Source: a virus. Taken from it: 51,287 nucleotides of DNA. A model generated the notes under the pieces. The model was not told where the DNA came from. It did no database searches and saw only the letters and a program-made list of their open reading frames with translations. Positions 2,208 to 51,287 of the stretch are shown here, piece after piece (position 1 is the stretch's first letter; every line of letters begins with the position of its first letter). Location of the stretch: positions 1-51,287 of IMG/VR virus record IMGVR_UViG_3300037193_001287; one strand, given 5' to 3'. A program made the translations under genes and the position numbers.

Positions 2208-3749
2208 TCAGAGCTCGCGCGCCAGGAGGTCGCCGGCCTCGGAGCGGATGGTCTCGACGACGCGCTCGGGCTGGCCGGGCGGCGGCCGGTTGCCGGCGCT
2301 GGCGGCCGGGCGGCCTTCTAGTTCCATGAGGAGGTAGCGGAGGGCGTCGTAGGCGTGGTCCTCGCCGGTGGTGTCGACGTCCTCGGGGCGGCGGTCGTCG
2401 CGCACGAGCTCGGGGAGGGTGCGGATGAGGTCGCGGCACGTTGAGTAGATGAGGAGGCGGGGGAGGCCGTCGTCGCGGACGCGCAACTTGTCGGCCACGA
2501 GGGCGACGCCGGCGAGGCGGTCGTTGCGGGCCTTGTGGACCGGGAGGCCGGCCTCGCGGTAGACGGCGGCGATGCTGCCGGGCGGGGGGCGGCCGTCGTC
2601 GGGGGCGCCGATGATCTTGGCGCCGGCGGTCGGCTCGTGGTGCGGGTTGCGCGCCCAGGTGGACGGGTCGAGGGCGACGGGGATGGGGCGGCCGGGGCGG
2701 CGTTCGCCGACCTCCTCGGCGTCGAGGATGCGGCGGGCTTGCTGCGCGGGGGTGAGGCCGGCCTTGTAGAGCTCGCGGTAGATGACGACGAGGCCATCGG
2801 AGAGCTTGGCTCCCCATAGGGCGGCGAACGGGGCGTCGAGGCCGTAGTCGACGCCGACGGCGCGGGTGACGCCGGCGCCGGGCCGGATGGGGAGCCGCTC
2901 GGGGTCGATGACGTGGATGGCGGTCCGGAAGTCGCGGAACCGTTGGCCGGCGTAGACGTTCCAGTCGCCGTAACGCATCGCTCGGCGCTCATCTTCGGGG
3001 AGGCGTTCTAGGACGGCGGCGTAGTGCGGGTCGACGTCGGGGTTGTCCTCGACGGTCGCCATGACGAACGCGCGGGTGCCGGGGTTGGGGTCGTCGACCG
3101 GGTCGGGCGCCGGCCGGAACACGGTGCCGTCCCCTTGGGGGAACGGGTCGATGAACCGGCGCTTGACCCAACCGTGGCCGACGCCACCGGGGTTCGCGGT
3201 GCTGATGGCTTTGGGGACGTAGCCGACGGCCTCCATGCGGCGGGCGAGCTCGCCGGAGACGCGCAGGCGGTGGAGGAGGTAGCGGTATTGGAACTCGGTG
3301 AACTGCTCTAGCTGGTCGAACCCGGCGATGGCCCATTCGGCGCCCTGGTACTTCGTGACGTCCTTGTCGGTCGCGCAATGGGCGAGTCGGAGGCGGCTGC
3401 CGTTGCGGAACGTCCAGATGTATTTGGAGGCGTTGTAGGTGCCGATGCTCGTGGGGAGGCGGTCTAGGAGGCGTTGCTCGATGCCGCCGAGCTCGGATAG
3501 CTGCGGATGCGTTCGCCGGAATAGGACGCCGTTGGCGCCGGGGAACTCCAACAGGACGGCGAGAACTTCGGCGATGAGGTAGTCGGTTTTTCCTCCGCCG
3601 GCGGCGCCGCCGTAGAGGAGCTCGTCGACCTCGGTGCGGTGCGCGATCTGTTGCCGGTCGTTGGGGCCGGGCTGGCGGTCGGTGTTGCGGGGGGGCGGGT
3701 AGTCGACGATGACGCCGGCCGGCGGCGCCGGCGTCTCGGCGACGGCCAC
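2208..3749 (-). CDS. Terminase large subunit (TerL)
   Basis: ATP-driven DNA packaging motor with nuclease. Residues 47-55 (GGAAGGGKT) are Walker A, FDQLEQF at 144-150 occupies the Walker B position, and STANPGG at 183-189 matches the coupling motif. The C-terminal RNase-H-like nuclease shows Asp301 (GVDYG), Asp361 (ALDPS) and Asp464/Asp468 (GEDHAYDAL). At 513 residues the length is normal. GTG start at 3749, three bases after the preceding stop. The Walker B segment has Gln/Leu-Glu rather than the usual DE pair, so Glu149 is the likely catalytic carboxylate. The small terminase gene is about 1.4 kb upstream, separated by five small genes. Confidence 0.95.
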   Translation of the reverse strand: MAVAETPAPPAGVIVDYPPPRNTDRQPGPNDRQQIAHRTEVDELLYGGAAGGGKTDYLIAEVLAVLLEFPGANGVLFRRTHPQLSELGGIEQRLLDRLPTSIGTYNASKYIWTFRNGSRLRLAHCATDKDVTKYQGAEWAIAGFDQLEQFTEFQYRYLLHRLRVSGELARRMEAVGYVPKAISTANPGGVGHGWVKRRFIDPFPQGDGTVFRPAPDPVDDPNPGTRAFVMATVEDNPDVDPHYAAVLERLPEDERRAMRYGDWNVYAGQRFRDFRTAIHVIDPERLPIRPGAGVTRAVGVDYGLDAPFAALWGAKLSDGLVVIYRELYKAGLTPAQQARRILDAEEVGERRPGRPIPVALDPSTWARNPHHEPTAGAKIIGAPDDGRPPPGSIAAVYREAGLPVHKARNDRLAGVALVADKLRVRDDGLPRLLIYSTCRDLIRTLPELVRDDRRPEDVDTTGEDHAYDALRYLLMELEGRPAASAGNRPPPGQPERVVETIRSEAGDLLAREL

Positions 3750-16327: not shown

Positions 16328-17410
16328 CTAGCCGACGATCATGCGGGGACCGCCGGCGACGATGGTGAACGCGGACGACTGTGTCCAACCGCTCGTCGTG
16401 TAGCCGTCGGAGGCGCGGACGCGGAGCTCGTAGGTGCCGGGCGTCTCGGCGCTCGTGTTCCATGAGTGCTGCGAGGCAGCGAGGGATGGCTGCCATGGGG
16501 TCCACGCGCCGCCGTTGTAGCGGTATTCCAACTCGTAGGTGATGGCGTCGCCGTCGGCGTCGGTGGCGTTGCCCCAGTTAATGAGGATGGTGGCGCCTTT
16601 GGCGATGGCTTGGCCGGCGCTCGGGGTGGTGAACGCGCCGGGGGCGCCGGGGGTGGTGTTGGGGGCGCGGATGGCGAGGATGGCGCCGGCGTCGCCGTGG
16701 TAGACGCGGCCGCCGGTGTGGCCGGAGATTCCGGCGGTCTTGGCGGCGGTGGCGGCGGCCGACGTGAGGAGCTCGTAGTAGCTCGCGTAGGTGATCTGCG
16801 ACGAGCCGGTCGCGCCGAAGGTCTCGGCGATGGTCATGCCGGAGGGCGGGGTCTGCCCGGCGGACGCGGCGCTGTTGTTGATGGTCGATTCGGCGAAGAA
16901 CGCGCCGAGGAGGAGCGTGTCGAGGACGCCGGGGGTGACGGCGCCGGCGGCGACGGATCGGCTCGCGATGGTGCTGCCATCGTTGGCGCCGTCGACGGCG
17001 TGGTTGTAGTCGGCGAAGGGGCCGCCATCGACGCCGATGAGGCGGTGCCCGCGGATGGCGAACGTGACGCCGGCGCGGTCCTTGCTGGTCTCGCTGTTCG
17101 TGAATCCCTGGTTGCCGGAGTGGCTGACGAGACCGGCCGAGCCGGCCTCGCGGTACAGGACGTAGAACCGGACGCGGGCGCCGCTGACGCCGTCGAAGGT
17201 GGTTTGGAACAGGGAGGACCAACCGCTCGGGAGGGTGATGCCGTCGTGGCTGCGGGAGACGCCGTCGTCGCTGCCGGCGAAGCAGTAGCCGACGTGGACG
17301 AGGAGGTCGCCGACCTGCGTTTCGGTGGGCTGCGAGAATGACCACGAACCCGACGAGATAGCGACGTTTTCGTGGTTCTGGACGCCGGCGAGGGTGGGGC
17401 GGGTCGGCAT
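16328..17410 (-). CDS. Tail appendage protein with C-terminal fibronectin-III-like domain (360 aa)
   Basis: The N-terminal 235 residues form a beta-rich domain with VGDLLVHVGY, LPSGWSSLF, TFAIRGH and VLDTLLLGAFF segments. The same layout, DLFVLTVHAK, TPAGWTKE, DYVAVAACL, is found at the start of the 996-residue fibre at 40049-43039, so the two probably share an adhesin-like fold. Residues 250-355 resemble a fibronectin III/Ig-like domain (DADGDAITYELEYRYNGGAW, TPGTYELRVRASDGYTTSGWTQSSAF). Likely exposed on the tail and involved in surface binding. Confidence 0.82.
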   Translation of the reverse strand: MPTRPTLAGVQNHENVAISSGSWSFSQPTETQVGDLLVHVGYCFAGSDDGVSRSHDGITLPSGWSSLFQTTFDGVSGARVRFYVLYREAGSAGLVSHSGNQGFTNSETSKDRAGVTFAIRGHRLIGVDGGPFADYNHAVDGANDGSTIASRSVAAGAVTPGVLDTLLLGAFFAESTINNSAASAGQTPPSGMTIAETFGATGSSQITYASYYELLTSAAATAAKTAGISGHTGGRVYHGDAGAILAIRAPNTTPGAPGAFTTPSAGQAIAKGATILINWGNATDADGDAITYELEYRYNGGAWTPWQPSLAASQHSWNTSAETPGTYELRVRASDGYTTSGWTQSSAFTIVAGGPRMIVG

Positions 17411-38098: not shown

Positions 38099-38289
38099 GG
38101 CCGGTAGGCCTGTTCGCCGTAGCGGTGCCGGTGGAGCTCGTCGTCGAGCTCGGCGGCGGCGTGCCGGGCCAGGACGGCGGCGCCGTCGAGGAGCCGCTCG
38201 ACCTCGGCGTCCTCGACGGCCTCCTCGGCCATCGTGGCGAGCTCGTGGGCGTTGGCGAGCATCTGCCGGACGTGGGTGGTGACGATCAT
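38095..38289 (-). CDS. Hypothetical helical protein (64 aa)
   Basis: ATG at 38289 overlaps the portal stop (ATGA). Nearly all helix: VRQMLANAHELATMAEEAVEDAEVERLLDGAAVLARHAAAELDDELHRH. No family recognised. Confidence 0.75.
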   Translation of the reverse strand: MIVTTHVRQMLANAHELATMAEEAVEDAEVERLLDGAAVLARHAAAELDDELHRHRYGEQAYRP

Positions 38290-39683
38290 GGTCGGCGGCG
38301 TTCGGCGAGGCGGGTGAGCCGCTCCGACACGGCGAGCGCGCGGGCGGCCATCGCTGCGGGTTCGATGATGAGGTCATCGACGGGAGGGGCGTCGGGGTCG
38401 CCGATGCCGTCGGGGCTCTCCTCGGGGGGGAGGCCGACGTCCTGGGCGGCGGGGAGGCCGTAGCGGCGGCGGACGTCGGCGATGAGGCCGGGGTCGATGG
38501 GGCCGAGGAGGCCGCCGGTGGCGAGCGTGTTCAGGGCCTCGGCGGTGGGGGTGCCTTCGGCGCGGATGGGGTCGGCGACGAGCTCGGGGTAGGCCTCGCC
38601 GTCGCCGAAGTTGAGGGCGACGAGGTCGCGGATGACGTACTCGGTGATCGTGCCTTCGATTTCCTCGACGACGGCGCCGAGGGCCATGACGAAGTAGTCG
38701 ACGAACGTGTCGCCGAGGCTGCGGGCGCCGTTGTCGTGGCCGAGGTTGAGGAACATGGCGAGCGCGGCGCGGCCCATGGCCTCGTCGTGGTACTTGATGA
38801 GGGGGAGCGGGTCGACGGTGTTGCCTTCGACGCCGACGAGGCGGAGGACGTAGCCGTCGGGGACGGCGGCGCCGGCCTCGGCGCCGGCGCGGAACCGCTT
38901 GGCGATGGAGAGGGCCTTTGCTTCGTCGCCGCCGGGCGGGACGCTGACGGTGGGGACGCCGAGGCCGTTGCGTTCGACGATGACGGCCGACAGCTTGTGG
39001 AGGCGGAGGTTGATGAGCCAGTGGCCGTAGGACGAGCGGAAGATGGAGCGGCCGGTCCAGTCGCCGCCTTCGCGGTCGTTGACGAACATGACGAGCCGGT
39101 CGCGGGGGATGACGGCCTCCTCCCAACCGGGGGAGCCGTCGCGGCGGGGGACGTGCTGGCGGACGTCGATGAGGCCTCCGTCGCGGGCGACGTTGACGGC
39201 GGTGATGCTGCGCGGCATGCGCGGCGAGAGCTTGCGGACGTGGGCGACGAGGCGGGGGAGCTCGGCCGGGTTCTGGCCGGGTGACGGGGGGCCGACCTCG
39301 TAGACCTGCTCGTGGGGGATGAACCCGAACGGGAGCATGAGCAGGGCGTGGCGGATGAGGTCGTCGAGAACGATGCCTTCGCGTCGGCGTCGGCGGCGGC
39401 CGTCGTCGAGGGCGTCGAGGCCGAGCTCGGATTCGACGAACTGCATGACGGCCGGGCGGACGTCGGCGCCGCGAAGGGTGGAGCGGCGGAACGCTTGGCG
39501 GACGGCGAGGGTGATGGCGCGGAGGATGCTGTCAAGCTGCGCGTTGCGGCGCATCTTGTCGTAGACGATGGCCGACAGGGGGAACCGGAGGTCGGGCGAA
39601 TCTTCCCAGGTGTCGAGGGAGCCGCCGATGGTGGAGACGCCGGGGACGCCGAGCTCGGTGGTGGGGGCGTCGGTGGCGGGCAC
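38286..39683 (-). CDS. Portal protein, Mu gp29/DUF935-like (465 aa)
   Basis: Shows the portal pattern: AIVYDKMRRNAQLDSILRAITLAVRQAFRRSTLRG (39-72), EQVYEVG, FVNDREGGDWTGRSIFRSSYGHWLINLRL, a wing helix and SLGDTFVDYFVMALGAVVEEIEGTITEYVIRDLVALNFG. It makes the dodecameric DNA channel at the head vertex. GTG start at 39683 lacks a clear ribosome binding site. It is far from TerL (about 14 kb upstream on the circle in transcription order), which is unusual. Confidence 0.88.
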   Translation of the reverse strand: MPATDAPTTELGVPGVSTIGGSLDTWEDSPDLRFPLSAIVYDKMRRNAQLDSILRAITLAVRQAFRRSTLRGADVRPAVMQFVESELGLDALDDGRRRRRREGIVLDDLIRHALLMLPFGFIPHEQVYEVGPPSPGQNPAELPRLVAHVRKLSPRMPRSITAVNVARDGGLIDVRQHVPRRDGSPGWEEAVIPRDRLVMFVNDREGGDWTGRSIFRSSYGHWLINLRLHKLSAVIVERNGLGVPTVSVPPGGDEAKALSIAKRFRAGAEAGAAVPDGYVLRLVGVEGNTVDPLPLIKYHDEAMGRAALAMFLNLGHDNGARSLGDTFVDYFVMALGAVVEEIEGTITEYVIRDLVALNFGDGEAYPELVADPIRAEGTPTAEALNTLATGGLLGPIDPGLIADVRRRYGLPAAQDVGLPPEESPDGIGDPDAPPVDDLIIEPAAMAARALAVSERLTRLAERRRP

Positions 39684-39701: not shown

Positions 39702-40052
39702 CTACCCGATGGCCGGGCGGACCCGAACCGACAGGGGGGCGGGGAGGTGCTCGTCGCCGGCGTCGGTGGTGATGGTGAGGTCGATCTCATAGCGGACGGT
39801 GTCGGCGGTGAGGTTGACGAGGTCACCGACGAGCCAGTCGACGCGGACGCGGGCGGGGGTGCCGGCGGCGCCGTAGGTGAGGATGGTGGCCGGGCGGGTG
39901 ATGGCGGCGGCCTCGACGGCGGCGCGGGTGACGCGGGCGGTGACGACGGCCTCGGCGGGGAGCTCGACCGGGAGGCGGCCTCGGCCTCGGACGAGGTCGA
40001 TGGCGAGGGGTGGGGCGGTCGAGCCGTGGGCGTAGACGGGCTCGTCGGTCAT
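39702..40052 (-). CDS. Hypothetical virion-related protein (116 aa)
   Basis: ATG at 40052 overlaps the fibre stop (ATGA). Beta-rich: VVTARVTRAAVEAAAITRPATILTYGAAGTPARVRVDWLVGDLVNLTADTVRYEIDLTITTDAGDEHLPAPLSVRVRPAIG. This is the pattern of BppU-like or fibre-associated N-terminal domains (a polymer strand followed by DWLVGDL...YEID). It may help attach the fibre; inference from adjacency. Confidence 0.75.
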   Translation of the reverse strand: MTDEPVYAHGSTAPPLAIDLVRGRGRLPVELPAEAVVTARVTRAAVEAAAITRPATILTYGAAGTPARVRVDWLVGDLVNLTADTVRYEIDLTITTDAGDEHLPAPLSVRVRPAIG

Positions 40053-43039
40053 GGCGCCGAGGTTAGGAGGTTGCCGGTGAGGGCCTCGGTGATGGGTTCG
40101 GCGAGCTCGGCGACGGCGGGCGTGGTGGTGGTGAGGCGGGCGGCGACCTCGGTGACGGTGAGCTCGGCGACGAGGAGGGCCTCGGCGAGCCGGGCGACGG
40201 CGAGGAGGGTGGGGAGGGTGGGGTCGAACACGGTGGCCGAACCGGCCGAGGTGGCCGAGCCGGCGGCGTGCGCGATGACGGTGAGCAGGGCGGCGGCGGT
40301 TCCTGCGGTGGTGGACGTGCCGGAGGCGGCGGCGAGCCGGAGGACGAGCGGGGAGGCGTAGCCGGCGCTGGTGGCGCTGCCGGCTGCTGCGGCGGGGCGG
40401 AGGGCGAGGGCGTCGGCGGTGCCGGCGCTCGACGCGCTGCCGGAGGCGTCGGCGCCGCGGGGGATGGTGGCGGAGGCCTCGCCGGAGGAGGTTGTCGAGC
40501 CGGTGGCTGCGGCCGGGCGGACGGGGATGACGGGGGAGGCGGTGCCGGCGGCGGTGCTCGTGGCGGCGGCGTGGGCGGCCAGGAGGAGCAGGGCGGCGGC
40601 GGTGCCGGCGGACGTGCTGGCGCCGAGGGCCTCGGAGGGGCCGGACGAGGCGGCGGTCGCGGTGCCGGCGGTCGAGCTCGTGCCGGTGGCGGCGGCGTGG
40701 CGGTCGGTGACGGCGGTGGCGGTACCGGCCGAGGTCGAGGAGCCTTGGGCGTCGGTGTCGAGGTCGGCGCCGCCGATGAGGCTGGCGGCGGCCGAGCCGG
40801 CGGAGGTCGAGGCGGCCTCGGCTGCGGCGGCGAGCAGGAGGAGCGCGGCGGCGGTGCCGGAGGTCGCCGACGCGGCGGATGCGGCGGCGGCGTGGAGCAG
40901 TAGTGCCGAGGCGGAGCCGGAGGTCGTCGAGGAGCCGGCGGCGGCGGCGGTGCGGACGAGGGCGGGTGTAGCGGTACCGGCCGAGGTCGACGCGGCGGAT
41001 GCTGCGGCCTGCCGGTCGACGAGAGCGGCGGCCGAGCCGGTGCTCGTACTGGCGGCGGTCGCGCTGCCGGCGTGGATGAGGAGGGCCGAGGCGGTACCGG
41101 CCGAGCTCGTGGCGCCGAGGGCGGCCGCGGCGAGCATGAGCAGGGCCGAGGCCGAGCCGGCGGACATGCTCGCGCCTTCGGCGTCGACGCGGCGGACGTA
41201 GTTGGCGGTCGCCGCGCCGGACGTGCTCGACGCGCCGGATGCTGCGGCGGTGAGGGTGGGGATGGTCGCCGAGCTCGTGCCGGCCGAGGTCGAGGCGCCG
41301 GACGCGTGGCCGGCGAGGAGCCGGAGCGCGCCGGCCGTGCCGGCGGTGGTGCTGGCGCCGGCGGCGGCGGCGGTGCGGACGAACTGGCCGGCCGCCGAAC
41401 CTGTCGAGGTCGACGCGCCGGCGGCGGCGACTTGGCGGGCGGGGATGATCGGGCCGGCCGTGCCGGCGGCCGCGCTCGTCCCGGTGGCGGCGGCGGTGCG
41501 GTTGACGAGTGGGGCGGCGGAGCCGGTCGAGGTTGACGCGCCGGCGGCCGCTGCGGCGCGGACGAAGCTGGCCGCCGCGGAACCTGCCGAGGTCGAGGAG
41601 CCGGCGGCGGCGGCGGTGAGGGCCAGGTTCGCCGCCGCGCTGCCGGCCGAGGCGGAGGCGCCGGCGGCGGCGGCCTGCCGGTTGGGGATGATGGGGGCGG
41701 CCGAGCCGGCGGCGGCGGACGTGCCGGTGGCGGCGCCGAGGAGGAGCCGCACAGGGCCGGCGGTGCCGGCGCTCGTCGACGTGCCGGTCGCGGCGGCCGC
41801 TCGGACGAAGCTGCCGGCGGCGCTGCCGGCGCTGGTGCTCGCGCCAGTAGCGGCGGCCTGCCGGTTGGGGATGGTCGCGTCGGCGGTGCCGGCCGACGTC
41901 GAGGCGCCGGCGGCCGCGGCGGCGCGGATGAGCTCGGCGGCGGCGCTGCCGGCCGCCAGGGACGCGCCGGCGGCGATAGCGGCGTGCAGGATGCTCGCGG
42001 TGGCGCTGCCGGAACTGGACGAGGCGCCGACGGCGTCGACGGCGAGGGTGGGGGCGAGCTCCTCGACGGCGTCCCAGGTGGGGGCGGCGGCCTCTAGGGC
42101 ATCCCAGGAGCCGGCCGAGACGCCTTCGATGGTTGACCATGCGGCGTAGGTGCGGACGGTCGCCGCGGCGCTACCGGCCGAGATGGCGGCGCCGGTGGCT
42201 TCGGCGAGGAGGACGAGGAGGACGGGGTCGGCTTGGCCGGCCGAGACCGTCGCGCCGGATGCTTCGGCGTGGAGGAGCTTGGTGGCCTCCGCCGAACCGG
42301 CGCTCGTGGAGGCGCCGGCGGCGTCGGCGGCGAGCGGGACGACCTCGCGCACGGCGTAGACGAACCCGCTGCCGGTCTGCGCGGCGGAGAGGGTGTTCGA
42401 CCATGTGAGGGTGACGGTGGCGCGGGCGCCGGCGGTGACCGCGGCGCGGGCGCCGGAGGCGGCGAGGTCGTTGCCGTTGTTGGTGGTGCCGTCGGTCGCC
42501 GGGCCTTTCGTGGCGGCGCCGATGGTCATTCCGGTCGCGGTCGGCGTCCACGTCGCGTTATAGGTCGCGTTGTTGCCGGCGAGGCAGGCGGCGACGGCGA
42601 CGTAGTCGTTGGCTCCGACGGAGACCGTGCCGGCGAGCGCGAACGAGGTGGCGCTCGTGCTGTCGGCGGCGCCGGCGATGCTCGGGACGAGGACGTCGCC
42701 GGTGGTGCTCCGCCATGACTGGACGGTGGCGAGGGTGACGTTGCCGTTGGTGACGGTGACGGACGGCGCGGTCTCCGCCGAGCTCGTGGCGGTGCGCGTG
42801 TAGATCGCTGACCATGTTTGGCCGGCGTCGGCGGCCTGAGCGGTGCCGGTGCCGCTCGTGGTCTCGGCCTCTTTCGTCCAACCGGCCGGCGTGGAGAACG
42901 TCGGCGGCGTGCCGGTGGCGGTCGGCTTCGCGTGGACGGTGAGGACGAATAGGTCGCCGGCCTGGTGGGTCGGCAGGTTCGGGGCGGCGGCGGTGGTGCC
43001 GGCGGCCCACGCGCTCGCGCCTTGGAACTGGGCGGCCAC
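40049..43039 (-). CDS. Giant Ala/Ser/Thr/Gly repeat fibre (996 aa)
   Basis: Residues 1-232 are a beta-rich domain like that of the 16.3-kb tail protein (DLFVLTVHAK, TPAGWTKE, DYVAVAACLAG, GFVYAVRE). From about 238 to 950 there are over 30 tandem units of about 20 residues with the core ATGxSTSAGxA, separated by short hydrophobic or Arg-starting spacers (for example RAAAAAGASTSAGTA). The fixed period suggests a repetitive beta-structured or solenoid shaft. A W-x3-E triplet interrupts the array at 301-326. The last 45 residues are helical (LARLAEALLVAELTVTEVAARLTT). GTG start at 43039 overlaps a TAG (TAGTG). Probably a receptor-binding or surface fibre. Confidence 0.8.
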   Translation of the reverse strand: MAAQFQGASAWAAGTTAAAPNLPTHQAGDLFVLTVHAKPTATGTPPTFSTPAGWTKEAETTSGTGTAQAADAGQTWSAIYTRTATSSAETAPSVTVTNGNVTLATVQSWRSTTGDVLVPSIAGAADSTSATSFALAGTVSVGANDYVAVAACLAGNNATYNATWTPTATGMTIGAATKGPATDGTTNNGNDLAASGARAAVTAGARATVTLTWSNTLSAAQTGSGFVYAVREVVPLAADAAGASTSAGSAEATKLLHAEASGATVSAGQADPVLLVLLAEATGAAISAGSAAATVRTYAAWSTIEGVSAGSWDALEAAAPTWDAVEELAPTLAVDAVGASSSSGSATASILHAAIAAGASLAAGSAAAELIRAAAAAGASTSAGTADATIPNRQAAATGASTSAGSAAGSFVRAAAATGTSTSAGTAGPVRLLLGAATGTSAAAGSAAPIIPNRQAAAAGASASAGSAAANLALTAAAAGSSTSAGSAAASFVRAAAAAGASTSTGSAAPLVNRTAAATGTSAAAGTAGPIIPARQVAAAGASTSTGSAAGQFVRTAAAAGASTTAGTAGALRLLAGHASGASTSAGTSSATIPTLTAAASGASSTSGAATANYVRRVDAEGASMSAGSASALLMLAAAALGATSSAGTASALLIHAGSATAASTSTGSAAALVDRQAAASAASTSAGTATPALVRTAAAAGSSTTSGSASALLLHAAAASAASATSGTAAALLLLAAAAEAASTSAGSAAASLIGGADLDTDAQGSSTSAGTATAVTDRHAAATGTSSTAGTATAASSGPSEALGASTSAGTAAALLLLAAHAAATSTAAGTASPVIPVRPAAATGSTTSSGEASATIPRGADASGSASSAGTADALALRPAAAAGSATSAGYASPLVLRLAAASGTSTTAGTAAALLTVIAHAAGSATSAGSATVFDPTLPTLLAVARLAEALLVAELTVTEVAARLTTTTPAVAELAEPITEALTGNLLTSAP

Positions 43040-43165: not shown

Positions 43166-43573
43166 CTAGTCGAGGGTCATGACGAGGGCGCCGGCGGCGA
43201 ACTGGATGGATTCGCCGATAGCGGCGTCCTTCGCCGCGGTGAGGGTCCAGAACATCGTGAGGTCGCCGGTGGTGCCGGACGACGACGACACGAGCGCGCA
43301 GTAGGGGACGTTCGCCGGGTCGGTGGAGAACGGGCCGAACGTCAACGTGCCGCTGTTCTGCGTGCTGGCCGGGTCGCCGGCCGGGGCGGTCCATGTGACG
43401 GCGACGCGGGCGTAGCCGGTCGCCGACAACTCGGTCATGGTGGCCGGCGTGGTCGCGTCGGCGGGGGCGGCGGTGAGGAGAGCCAGGTACATCGACCGGG
43501 CTGTCTGTGTGGCGCGGCCGGAGGCGGCGTCGAGCGCGATGCCGGCGCCGACGGTGGAGAGCTCGCCGGGCAT
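43166..43573 (-). CDS. Virion surface protein of the actinophage minor tail type (135 aa)
   Basis: Pattern MYLALLTAAPADATTPATMTELSATGYARVAVTWTAPAGDP, TLTFGPFSTDPANVPYCALVSSSSGTTGDLTMFWTLTAAKDAAIGESIQFAAGALVMTLD is a recurring small all-beta protein next to fibre genes in actinophages. It probably forms a trimeric adhesin-like knob. ATG at 43573 with GAGG upstream. Confidence 0.78.
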   Translation of the reverse strand: MPGELSTVGAGIALDAASGRATQTARSMYLALLTAAPADATTPATMTELSATGYARVAVTWTAPAGDPASTQNSGTLTFGPFSTDPANVPYCALVSSSSGTTGDLTMFWTLTAAKDAAIGESIQFAAGALVMTLD

Positions 43574-43576
43574 GGT

Positions 43577-44041
43577 CTAAGCCTCCTTCGCGAGCTCAAA
43601 GAGCTCGTGGAACGGGAGCAACGTGATGGGGGAGGTGCGGCCGATGGACGGGTCGGCGTCGACGGTGCGGCCGACGAGACCGATGGAGGTGGCGCGGCGG
43701 ATGGTGCCGTAGCCGAGGCGGGGCACGGCGCGGCGGCGGTCGACGAGGTCGACGATGAGGTCGCCGTTGTCGTCGAGGACGGCCTCGCGGGTGGTGGTGT
43801 CGAGGCGGACCTCGGGCCGCTGGTAGGGCTCCTCGTCGACGTGGGTGATGACGACGCCGGGGGCGTCCCATTCGACGACGACGGCGTCCTCGGTGTCGTC
43901 GTAGGCGCCGGGCTCGCCGGCGTCGACGACCTCGCGGACGGTGACGGTGGTGCCGGGGAGGAGGGCGCCGGCGTCGATTCCGATGGGGACGGACCCGACG
44001 TAGACGTACTCGTCGCCGGCCTTCGGCGTGCGCTTCGGCAT
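43577..44041 (-). CDS. Hypothetical protein (154 aa)
   Basis: ATG at 44041. N-terminal part beta-rich (GDEYVYVGSVPIGIDAGALLPGTTVTVREVVDAGEPGAYDDTEDAVVVEW), like small phage surface proteins; the C-terminal part reads ATSIGLVGRTVDADPSIGRTSPITLLPFHELFELAKEA. No family recognised. First gene of the fibre cluster. Confidence 0.78.
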   Translation of the reverse strand: MPKRTPKAGDEYVYVGSVPIGIDAGALLPGTTVTVREVVDAGEPGAYDDTEDAVVVEWDAPGVVITHVDEEPYQRPEVRLDTTTREAVLDDNGDLIVDLVDRRRAVPRLGYGTIRRATSIGLVGRTVDADPSIGRTSPITLLPFHELFELAKEA

Positions 44042-49749: not shown

Positions 49750-51287
49750 CTAGCGGCCGGCGCAATGGTGGGCGCCGATGATGCCGGAGGAGCGGACGAC
49801 GTCGGTGCGGCCGCAGGAGGGGCACGAGGCGGCCTCGTGGCGCTCCTGGGGGGCGGTGGCGCCGGTGAGGTCGCTGGCGGCCGTGGCGGCCTCCTGGGGG
49901 CCGTCCTGGGGGGCGTGGAGGTCGAGGAGGGCGCCGACGGCGGAGCCGAGGTCGAGCTCGCGGCGGGCGCGGGTGACGGCGACGTAGATGAGGCGGAGCT
50001 CCTCGGCCTCGGGGAGCTTCTCGGTGCCGTCCTTGGCGGTGCCGTTGGGGAAGTCGCCGGCGAGGCGCACGGTGTTCCACTCGCGGCCCTTGGCCTTGTG
50101 GGCGGTGGAGAGGATGACGTCGGCGGCGGCCTCGGTGGCCTGCTGGCCGAGCTTCTCGATGATGGTGTCGGCGCCGAACTTCTCGACGAGGCCGACGAGG
50201 AGGCGGAGCTCGGAACCCTGCTGGTCGTTCTCGACGTAGTCGAGGACGTCGGCCCAGGTGGTGAAGCAAGCGAGCTCGGGGTGAGACGTCCAACCGTCCT
50301 CGATGAGCGAGAGGGCACCCTTGGCGAACGCGATGACCTCGGTGGCGCCGCCGACGATGTGGGGGGCCTTGCCGTCGTCGAGGAGCCGGAACGCGGTGTC
50401 GACGGCCTTGGCGTTGGTGCGGAACAGGATGACGTCGGGCTCGGCGACGGGGCCGACGACGCTGGCGATGGTGGGGGTGCCGGCGAGGGTGAGCTCGGCG
50501 TCGAGGAGGCCGAGGACGCGGTTGGCCTCGGCGGCCACGGTGGGGCCGAACCGGAACGACTGAGTGAGGAAGGCGCGGCGGGTGACGTCGACGTTGGCGA
50601 GGGCGTTGACGGCGCCGGTGAACCCGTAGATGGCCTGCTGCGAGTCGCCGACGTACACGCGCTGCGCGTGCTCCTGGGCGTTGACGATGGCGAGCATGAC
50701 GGGGTTCGCGTCCTGGGCCTCGTCGAACAGGATGAAGTCGGCGGCGATGCGCGGGCCGGACAGGTGCCAGAGCTTTAGGTAGTGGTCGTGGCCGAACCGG
50801 AGCTTGCCGGCGGGGTCGGCGAGGTCGGCCCAGGCGCGGCGGGCGGCCGGCAACAGGTGGCGGCGGACCTCGCGGTTGTTGGCCCAACCGCGGCGGCCGT
50901 CGGGGGTGGGGAGGTCGATGCCGTCGAGGTAGGGGAAATGGGCCTCGGTGACCTCGGTGTCGGCGGACTGGCAAAAGCCGGTGATGGCCCGGTTGACGAC
51001 GCCGGCGAGAAAGCCGGGCGAGAGGCGCTTGGAGCCGAACGGGGTGGTGACGGTGATGGGGTCGATGCGGAGGCGCTTGGCGACCTCGGCGGCCTTCTGG
51101 CGCTGGCCGTTCATGCGGTGGGCGTAGGGGCCGGCGACCGCTCGGAACGCGAGGCCGTGGGCGGTCGAGCATGTGACGTTGCCGGGCATCTTGGCGCCGG
51201 CCTCGGCGACGATGGCCCGGTTAAACGCGATGTAGGCGCCGGTGCGGGGGGTGGACTCGGCGAGGAGGCGGAGGGTGGAGGTCTTGC
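49750..51287 (-). CDS. UvrD-type SF1 helicase, main part (joins to 1-247)
   Basis: Together with 1-247 this codes for 547 residues. ILFDEAQD (221-228, Walker B), GDSQQAIYGFTGA (249-261, motif III), a motif IV/V region with STAHKAKGREWNTVRLAGDF, and LIYVAVTRARRELDL (motif VI) are all intact, so an active 3'-5' translocase of the UvrD/Rep type is expected. A C-terminal CPSCG...HHC stretch could hold a zinc. At 547 residues it lacks the long 2B insertion of bacterial UvrD. Likely helps recombination-dependent replication with RecT. Confidence 0.93.
   Translation of the reverse strand, partial: KTSTLRLLAESTPRTGAYIAFNRAIVAEAGAKMPGNVTCSTAHGLAFRAVAGPYAHRMNGQRQKAAEVAKRLRIDPITVTTPFGSKRLSPGFLAGVVNRAITGFCQSADTEVTEAHFPYLDGIDLPTPDGRRGWANNREVRRHLLPAARRAWADLADPAGKLRFGHDHYLKLWHLSGPRIAADFILFDEAQDANPVMLAIVNAQEHAQRVYVGDSQQAIYGFTGAVNALANVDVTRRAFLTQSFRFGPTVAAEANRVLGLLDAELTLAGTPTIASVVGPVAEPDVILFRTNAKAVDTAFRLLDDGKAPHIVGGATEVIAFAKGALSLIEDGWTSHPELACFTTWADVLDYVENDQQGSELRLLVGLVEKFGADTIIEKLGQQATEAAADVILSTAHKAKGREWNTVRLAGDFPNGTAKDGTEKLPEAEELRLIYVAVTRARRELDLGSAVGALLDLHAPQDGPQEAATAASDLTGATAPQERHEAASCPSCGRTDVVRSSGIIGAHHCAGR
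51147..51287. repeat. Right copy of 141-bp terminal direct repeat
   Basis: Exact duplicate of bases 1-141. It should be removed when the genome is circularised. It lies inside the helicase coding sequence (minus strand). Confidence 0.95.

Follow-up and report, generated by a model that had tools for sequence, protein, structure and literature searches.

What is the role of a 996-residue protein made up largely of twenty-residue Ser/Thr/Ala/Gly repeats, encoded close to the portal gene of a contractile-tailed phage, and where on the particle would such a protein be found? The question is raised by a viral contig of 51,287 bp (IMG/VR record IMGVR_UViG_3300037193_001287), hereafter the window, a term which denotes the whole stretch of DNA analysed. 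From its sequence alone, the original prediction had proposed a long adhesive fibre, possibly attached to the head or neck. In the reading preferred here, which we regard as an even bet, its product is the long shaft, or the adhesin, of a side appendage of the virion, separate from the baseplate fibres.

Genome context and layout of the fibre gene

The window has a GC content of 74% and carries an identical direct terminal repeat of 141 bp at positions 1-141 and 51147-51287; it therefore probably represents a whole genome of about 51.1 kb that is circularly permuted. Most of the likely genes, and every structural gene, lie on the minus strand. The presence of sheath and tail tube genes identifies a contractile-tailed phage, and the structural set further includes a portal, two protease-type head genes, a major head protein and a neck protein, accompanied by tape measure, baseplate-type and lysis genes. 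The terminase and the genes around the fibre are arranged as follows.

2208..3749, minus strand: terminase large subunit (Pfam Terminase_6N; 57% identity to TerL of contigs L002 and L003)
38286..39683, minus strand: Mu-type portal protein (phrog_113, 1e-65; Pfam Portal_Mu, 1.3e-36)
39702..40052, minus strand: small protein of 116 aa between fibre and portal, whose start overlaps the stop codon of the fibre (ATGA)
40049..43039, minus strand: repeat-fibre gene, 996 aa, with a GTG start at 43039, a stop ending at 40049 and no internal stops
43166..43573, minus strand: Gp80-like protein of 135 aa, upstream of the fibre (PF23140, 2.8e-16; phrog_240 'head protein', 3.7e-12)
43577..44041, minus strand: protein of 154 aa, upstream of the Gp80-like gene

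The nearest relatives of the portal belong to Arthrobacter and Gordonia phages and to contigs L002 and L003. The terminase is found directly before the portal in Arthrobacter phage EastWest, and likewise close ahead of it in L002 and L003; in the window, the gap between the two is about 14 kb and contains, besides several unknown genes, one of helicase type (49750-51189). Going round the circle, the cassette composed of the 154-aa, Gp80-like, fibre and 116-aa genes represents the last part before the portal. Family searches gave no match for the 116-aa protein nor, with PHROGs included, for the 154-aa protein. The possibility that the 116-aa gene following the fibre is the same gene in L025, L028, L034 and L032 was tested and was not supported.

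Codon usage singles out the fibre frame, in which the log-odds are +0.64 while they are negative in the other five, and synonymous-codon preference likewise selects this frame alone. The span initially assigned to the gene, 40049-43039, is correct, and its strand is set here as minus. Homologues of the N-terminal domain begin at the same point in the domain, and the GTG start is thus supported. A tRNA-Thr called by ARAGORN within the gene (window 42711-42792, plus strand) is probably false, because it lacks Rfam support and is located in a well-modelled domain. The following parts can be recognised in the gene.

42329..43039, minus strand: N-terminal all-beta domain, residues 1-237, with the motif QAGDLFV...TPxGWT (11-row alignment)
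40202..42316, minus strand: shaft of 33 units of 20-21 residues, residues 242-946 (autocorrelation and unit list)
42029..42154, minus strand: tryptophan-rich insertion in the shaft, at about residues 296-337, WSTIEGVSAGSWDALEAAAPTWDAVEEL (from sequence)
40052..40201, minus strand: C-terminal hydrophobic segment, residues 947-996 (50 residues), differing from the units

Taken as a whole, the 996-aa protein has no match in Pfam, PHROGs or phage tblastn; no Pfam family recognises it, and it is not itself a member of PF23140, the family of its neighbour. Nor was anything found when viral contigs were scanned for patterns taken from the fibre or from its N-terminus alone. The failure of tblastn and of the pattern scans is expected because of low-complexity masking. 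A scan with the DNA pattern of the repeat unit returned a single chance match, in L020, which is an unrelated capsid region.

The N-terminal domain and its relatives

The N-terminal domain was modelled by AlphaFold2 as all beta (pLDDT 90.3, pTM 0.90). A fold search of the PDB with this model produced no useful match; in the viral structure library BFVD, 49 matches were obtained at E <= 1e-3, with a best E of 1.6e-8 and TM up to 0.75, and these include annotated minor tail proteins of Mycobacterium and Gordonia phages. Sequence searches with the window domain alone found nothing. Two Rhizobium phage proteins carry the same QAGDLxV...PxGWT motif as the window domain; alignment with them led to ten viral contigs, and a later scan to 37. 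A profile of the domain family built without the window row recovers the window domain, both with hhalign (probability 98.9, E 1.3e-17) and with hmmsearch (5e-29). By profile and by predicted fold, the window protein belongs to this family, characterised by the GDL and PxGWT motifs at the N-terminus and represented among phage surface proteins.

A remote copy of the domain is present among the tail genes of the same genome.

16328..17410, minus strand: tail-region protein of 360 aa, with a remote copy of the N-terminal domain and an Ig/FN3-like C-terminus

An N-terminal domain common to this protein and the fibre had been part of the original prediction. BLASTP with the fibre domain does not see it (E 0.29); a 15-member profile assigns a score of 36.7 to the 16.3-kb protein, whereas 150 shuffles reach no more than 19.0 and 22 other proteins of the window no more than 19.3. 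This supports remote homology over about 60 columns and upholds the claim at the level of profiles. The C-terminus of the 360-aa protein is matched by phrog_10993 ('Hoc-like head decoration').

These relatives introduce a second reading, according to which the gene encodes an ordinary minor tail protein or tail fibre, mounted on the tail, and was moved beside the portal by mosaic exchange. We consider this possible, if rather doubtful. Many proteins annotated as actinophage minor tail proteins share the N-terminal fold, for example A5YJY9 of Mycobacterium phage Tweety, whose N-terminal domain has the same predicted fold, and the 16.3-kb protein with its remote copy lies in the tail region. Since the nearest relatives are labelled as minor tail proteins in PHROGs and in the viral structure library, a tail position is possible; however, 'minor tail protein' is a default label in actinophage annotation.

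The repeat shaft

More than 30 units with a steady period of 20-21 residues had been predicted. The count obtained here is 33, and autocorrelation of the shaft confirms the period of 20 (z = 14.2), with lags of 40, 41 and 61 also strong. The consensus of the unit is G-A-S-T-S-A-G-[ST]-A-x-A-x-[LIV]-x-x-x-A-A-A-x, in which Gly7 is conserved in all 33 units and Ala9 in 32 of them. The array is broken after unit 3 by the tryptophan-rich stretch, and one unit (742-765) reaches 24 residues. The periodicity at lag 61, together with a 183-bp row in the TRF output, reveals that blocks have also been duplicated inside the array, in this case a block of three units (20+20+21 residues).

The self-alignment of the shaft was based on non-overlapping unit blocks. 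Between units, mean pS is 0.354, compared with 0.335 expected when codons are randomly redrawn, and pN is 0.411. The silent sites have thus reached saturation, but the core is retained by selection, from which the array can be considered old and selected, as had been suggested by the differences between units. GC3 is 0.93, a value at which saturation is reached early, and the array consequently carries no time scale.

A five-unit monomer model of the shaft, based on a 16-row repeat alignment, is of low confidence (pLDDT 51, pTM 0.37); its strands are regularly spaced at 20 residues, two in each unit. Many phage fibres reach their fold only as trimers. Each unit may thus be one repeat of a beta-rich fibrous fold with two strands per unit. 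If it corresponded to a single solenoid rung of 0.48 nm, the shaft would be about 16 nm long, and other fibrous folds would make it longer.

The association of domain and shaft is also found in other phages. Ten non-redundant domain proteins run into a shaft of period 20, with z values from 5 to 21; they derive from the window and from L025, L027, L028, L032, L034, L039, L042, L043 and L074, the sources being viral contigs, an Ideonella prophage (L034) and others. Other domain proteins have a shaft with a period of 24 residues (L065:1791-3809, z 19.9) or 14 residues (L075:6977-12919, z 20.9), or are free of repeats. Unit sequences differ between shafts, being LSGSGSLTASAVVVGTAS in L074, GTSAGVGTPSATVLGAVDVA in L025 and GSATGTTVYSGSAAGAKPLR in L028, and the units of L025 are the only ones to resemble those of the window position by position (1 of 200 column-permuted controls). 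A single unit sequence common to all shafts was rejected: with the exception of L025, they share mainly the period. As the same period is combined with mostly different unit sequences, it is probably the fold which sets the 20 residues, while the unit sequence drifts or is replaced. The actinophage family phrog_19249 ('minor tail protein') matches the 20-residue shafts of L032 and L028, a further point in favour of a tail protein, and not the window shaft, for which its HMM gave no match at E <= 10. Short repeats rich in Trp and Arg, of about 10 residues (e.g. PRRWEG), occur at the C-termini of L028, L034 and L074, whereas the Trp-rich stretch of the window (42029-42154) is located inside the shaft.

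Alternatively, the array may be a disordered low-complexity linker, generated by GC-rich repeat expansion and devoid of a fibrous fold. Its composition (35% Ala, 38% Ser/Thr/Gly) and the poor shaft model (pLDDT 51) would agree with this, and we nonetheless hold it to be highly improbable: Gly7 is invariant despite saturated silent sites, the period of 20 residues is found in ten proteins, most of which have different sequences, and the spacing of strands is regular even in the weak model.

The Gp80-like neighbour

The 135-aa product of 43166-43573 matches PF23140 (GP4 fiber I) with 60.4 bits, against a cut-off of 27, over model positions 11-128 of 128, which assigns it by sequence to this family. 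The profile of the Gp80 family in turn matches PDB chain 8jou_a, a virion protein of GP4, at E 7.9e-10. For GP4, chain 8JOU_g is described as a fibril that joins an adhesin to the collar of the tail nozzle (PMC13243795), and the chain matched by the profile here is 8jou_a. The likeness to fiber I gp80 of the Ralstonia podophage GP4 (PF23140; PDB 8JOU) concerns the adjacent 135-aa gene, a full-length family member, whereas the 996-aa fibre itself is unrelated to gp80; moreover, GP4 is a short-tailed phage, while the window genome encodes a contractile tail with a sheath.

A Gp80-like gene was detected within about 4 kb of 6 of the 10 shaft proteins (window, L025, L027, L034, L043 and L074), as opposed to none of 22 non-redundant domain proteins that lack a shaft of 20-residue period (Fisher p = 2.3e-4; 7e-4 when the window is left out). 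Two of the four shaft loci without such a gene, L028 and L042, are cut off upstream by the contig edge. The Gp80 profile employed for this count was built with L025, L027, L034 and the window, and without L043 and L074; for the four loci used to build it, PF23140 or phrog_240 itself likewise detects the Gp80-like gene. The arrangement differs in L043, where this gene lies downstream of the shaft gene, and in L034, where about 4 kb containing other genes separates the two. A 114-aa protein encoded upstream in L032 was tested as a further Gp80-like candidate and was not supported. The L034 locus (L034:2378-9638), part of a Mu-type prophage in an Ideonella sp. MAG, is a surface cassette which, besides the Gp80-like gene, encodes three proteins: one of 642 aa that terminates in another PGWT-motif domain, one of 468 aa, and one of 909 aa in which the N-terminal domain is joined to a 20-residue shaft.

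The combination of recurrent domain, shaft and Gp80 pairing is present in several unrelated phages. The fibre-like role initially proposed is supported because the upstream neighbour is of the Gp80 family (GP4 fiber I) and because the same pairing recurs elsewhere. In the preferred reading, the fibre protein would be present in the virion, and the Gp80-like protein would be part of the same appendage, linking it to the particle.

A different role would be that of a non-virion protein, exposed on the surface or secreted during infection or lysogeny, which coats the host or mediates aggregation. Repeats rich in Ala, Ser, Thr and Gly are found in bacterial surface proteins too, and the gene of L025 is near an integrase encoded on the other strand, a setting in which cargo genes are typically found. 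Such a role appears unlikely, as the N-terminus of the window fibre has no signal-like hydrophobic stretch, the fibre clusters on the same strand with structural genes, and the relatives of both the domain and the Gp80-like neighbour are virion proteins.

Possible position of the fibre on the virion

The location described originally, between small surface-type proteins and the portal and away from the tail-fibre genes, is confirmed. The major capsid gene of L027 is immediately followed by the fibre and its neighbour of the Gp80 type, and a comparable cassette stands ahead of the terminase and a Mu-type portal in the Ideonella prophage L034, with terminase, portal and capsid in these two loci assigned from sequence and gene order. 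The fibre gene of L032 differs in having an endolysin-like and a tail-fibre-like gene next to it, a point against the preferred reading. Against a tail protein relocated by mosaic exchange, 21 kb separate the window fibre gene from the baseplate genes; unlike the genes of the actinophage minor tail proteins, it adjoins the portal instead of lying among the baseplate genes, and the Gp80-like gene is beside head genes in the window, L027 and L034. Gene order is weak evidence for a position in the particle, and it leans towards the head or neck. If the gene does encode a side appendage, this may be placed near the head-neck junction, given that DNA genes and the portal flank the cassette of the window and considering its positions in L027 and L034; the globular domain may then establish weak contacts with the host or with surface polymers.

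Accessory fibres outside the tail tip have been described in other contractile phages. Cyanophage A-1(L) has a long, bead-like accessory neck fibre, gp82-gp81-gp80, encoded apart from the tail genes (PMC10966104). Compared by description only, it resembles the window in having a long accessory fibre, a contractile tail and a gene separate from the tail genes; however, the length of the A-1(L) fibre is achieved with about 14 copies of a small separate protein, whereas in the window the repeats are contained in one chain (PMC10966104). The name gp80 shared by the A-1(L) protein and that of GP4 is a coincidence of numbering. In Agrobacterium phage 7-7-1, also contractile, flexible head fibres make contact with the host surface earlier than the tail (PMC12796354); the likeness of these capsid fibres to the window fibre is again one of description.

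Implications

On a broader scale, we tentatively propose, at a confidence still short of probable, that these loci represent a widespread and so far undescribed modular phage appendage, consisting of a Gp80-type protein and a chain with the PxGWT beta-domain and an obligatory shaft of 20-residue period. Such a module would be inserted in the head or neck modules of unrelated phages, with the sequence of the shaft free to evolve and its period kept. Appendages outside the tail tip are so far poorly catalogued, because routine searches mask low-complexity shafts. Used together, the PxGWT domain, a period of 20 residues and a neighbour of the Gp80 type would provide a search handle by which such fibres could be found and named across phages, and would give one testable fold to repeats which are now labelled just as minor tail or hypothetical proteins.
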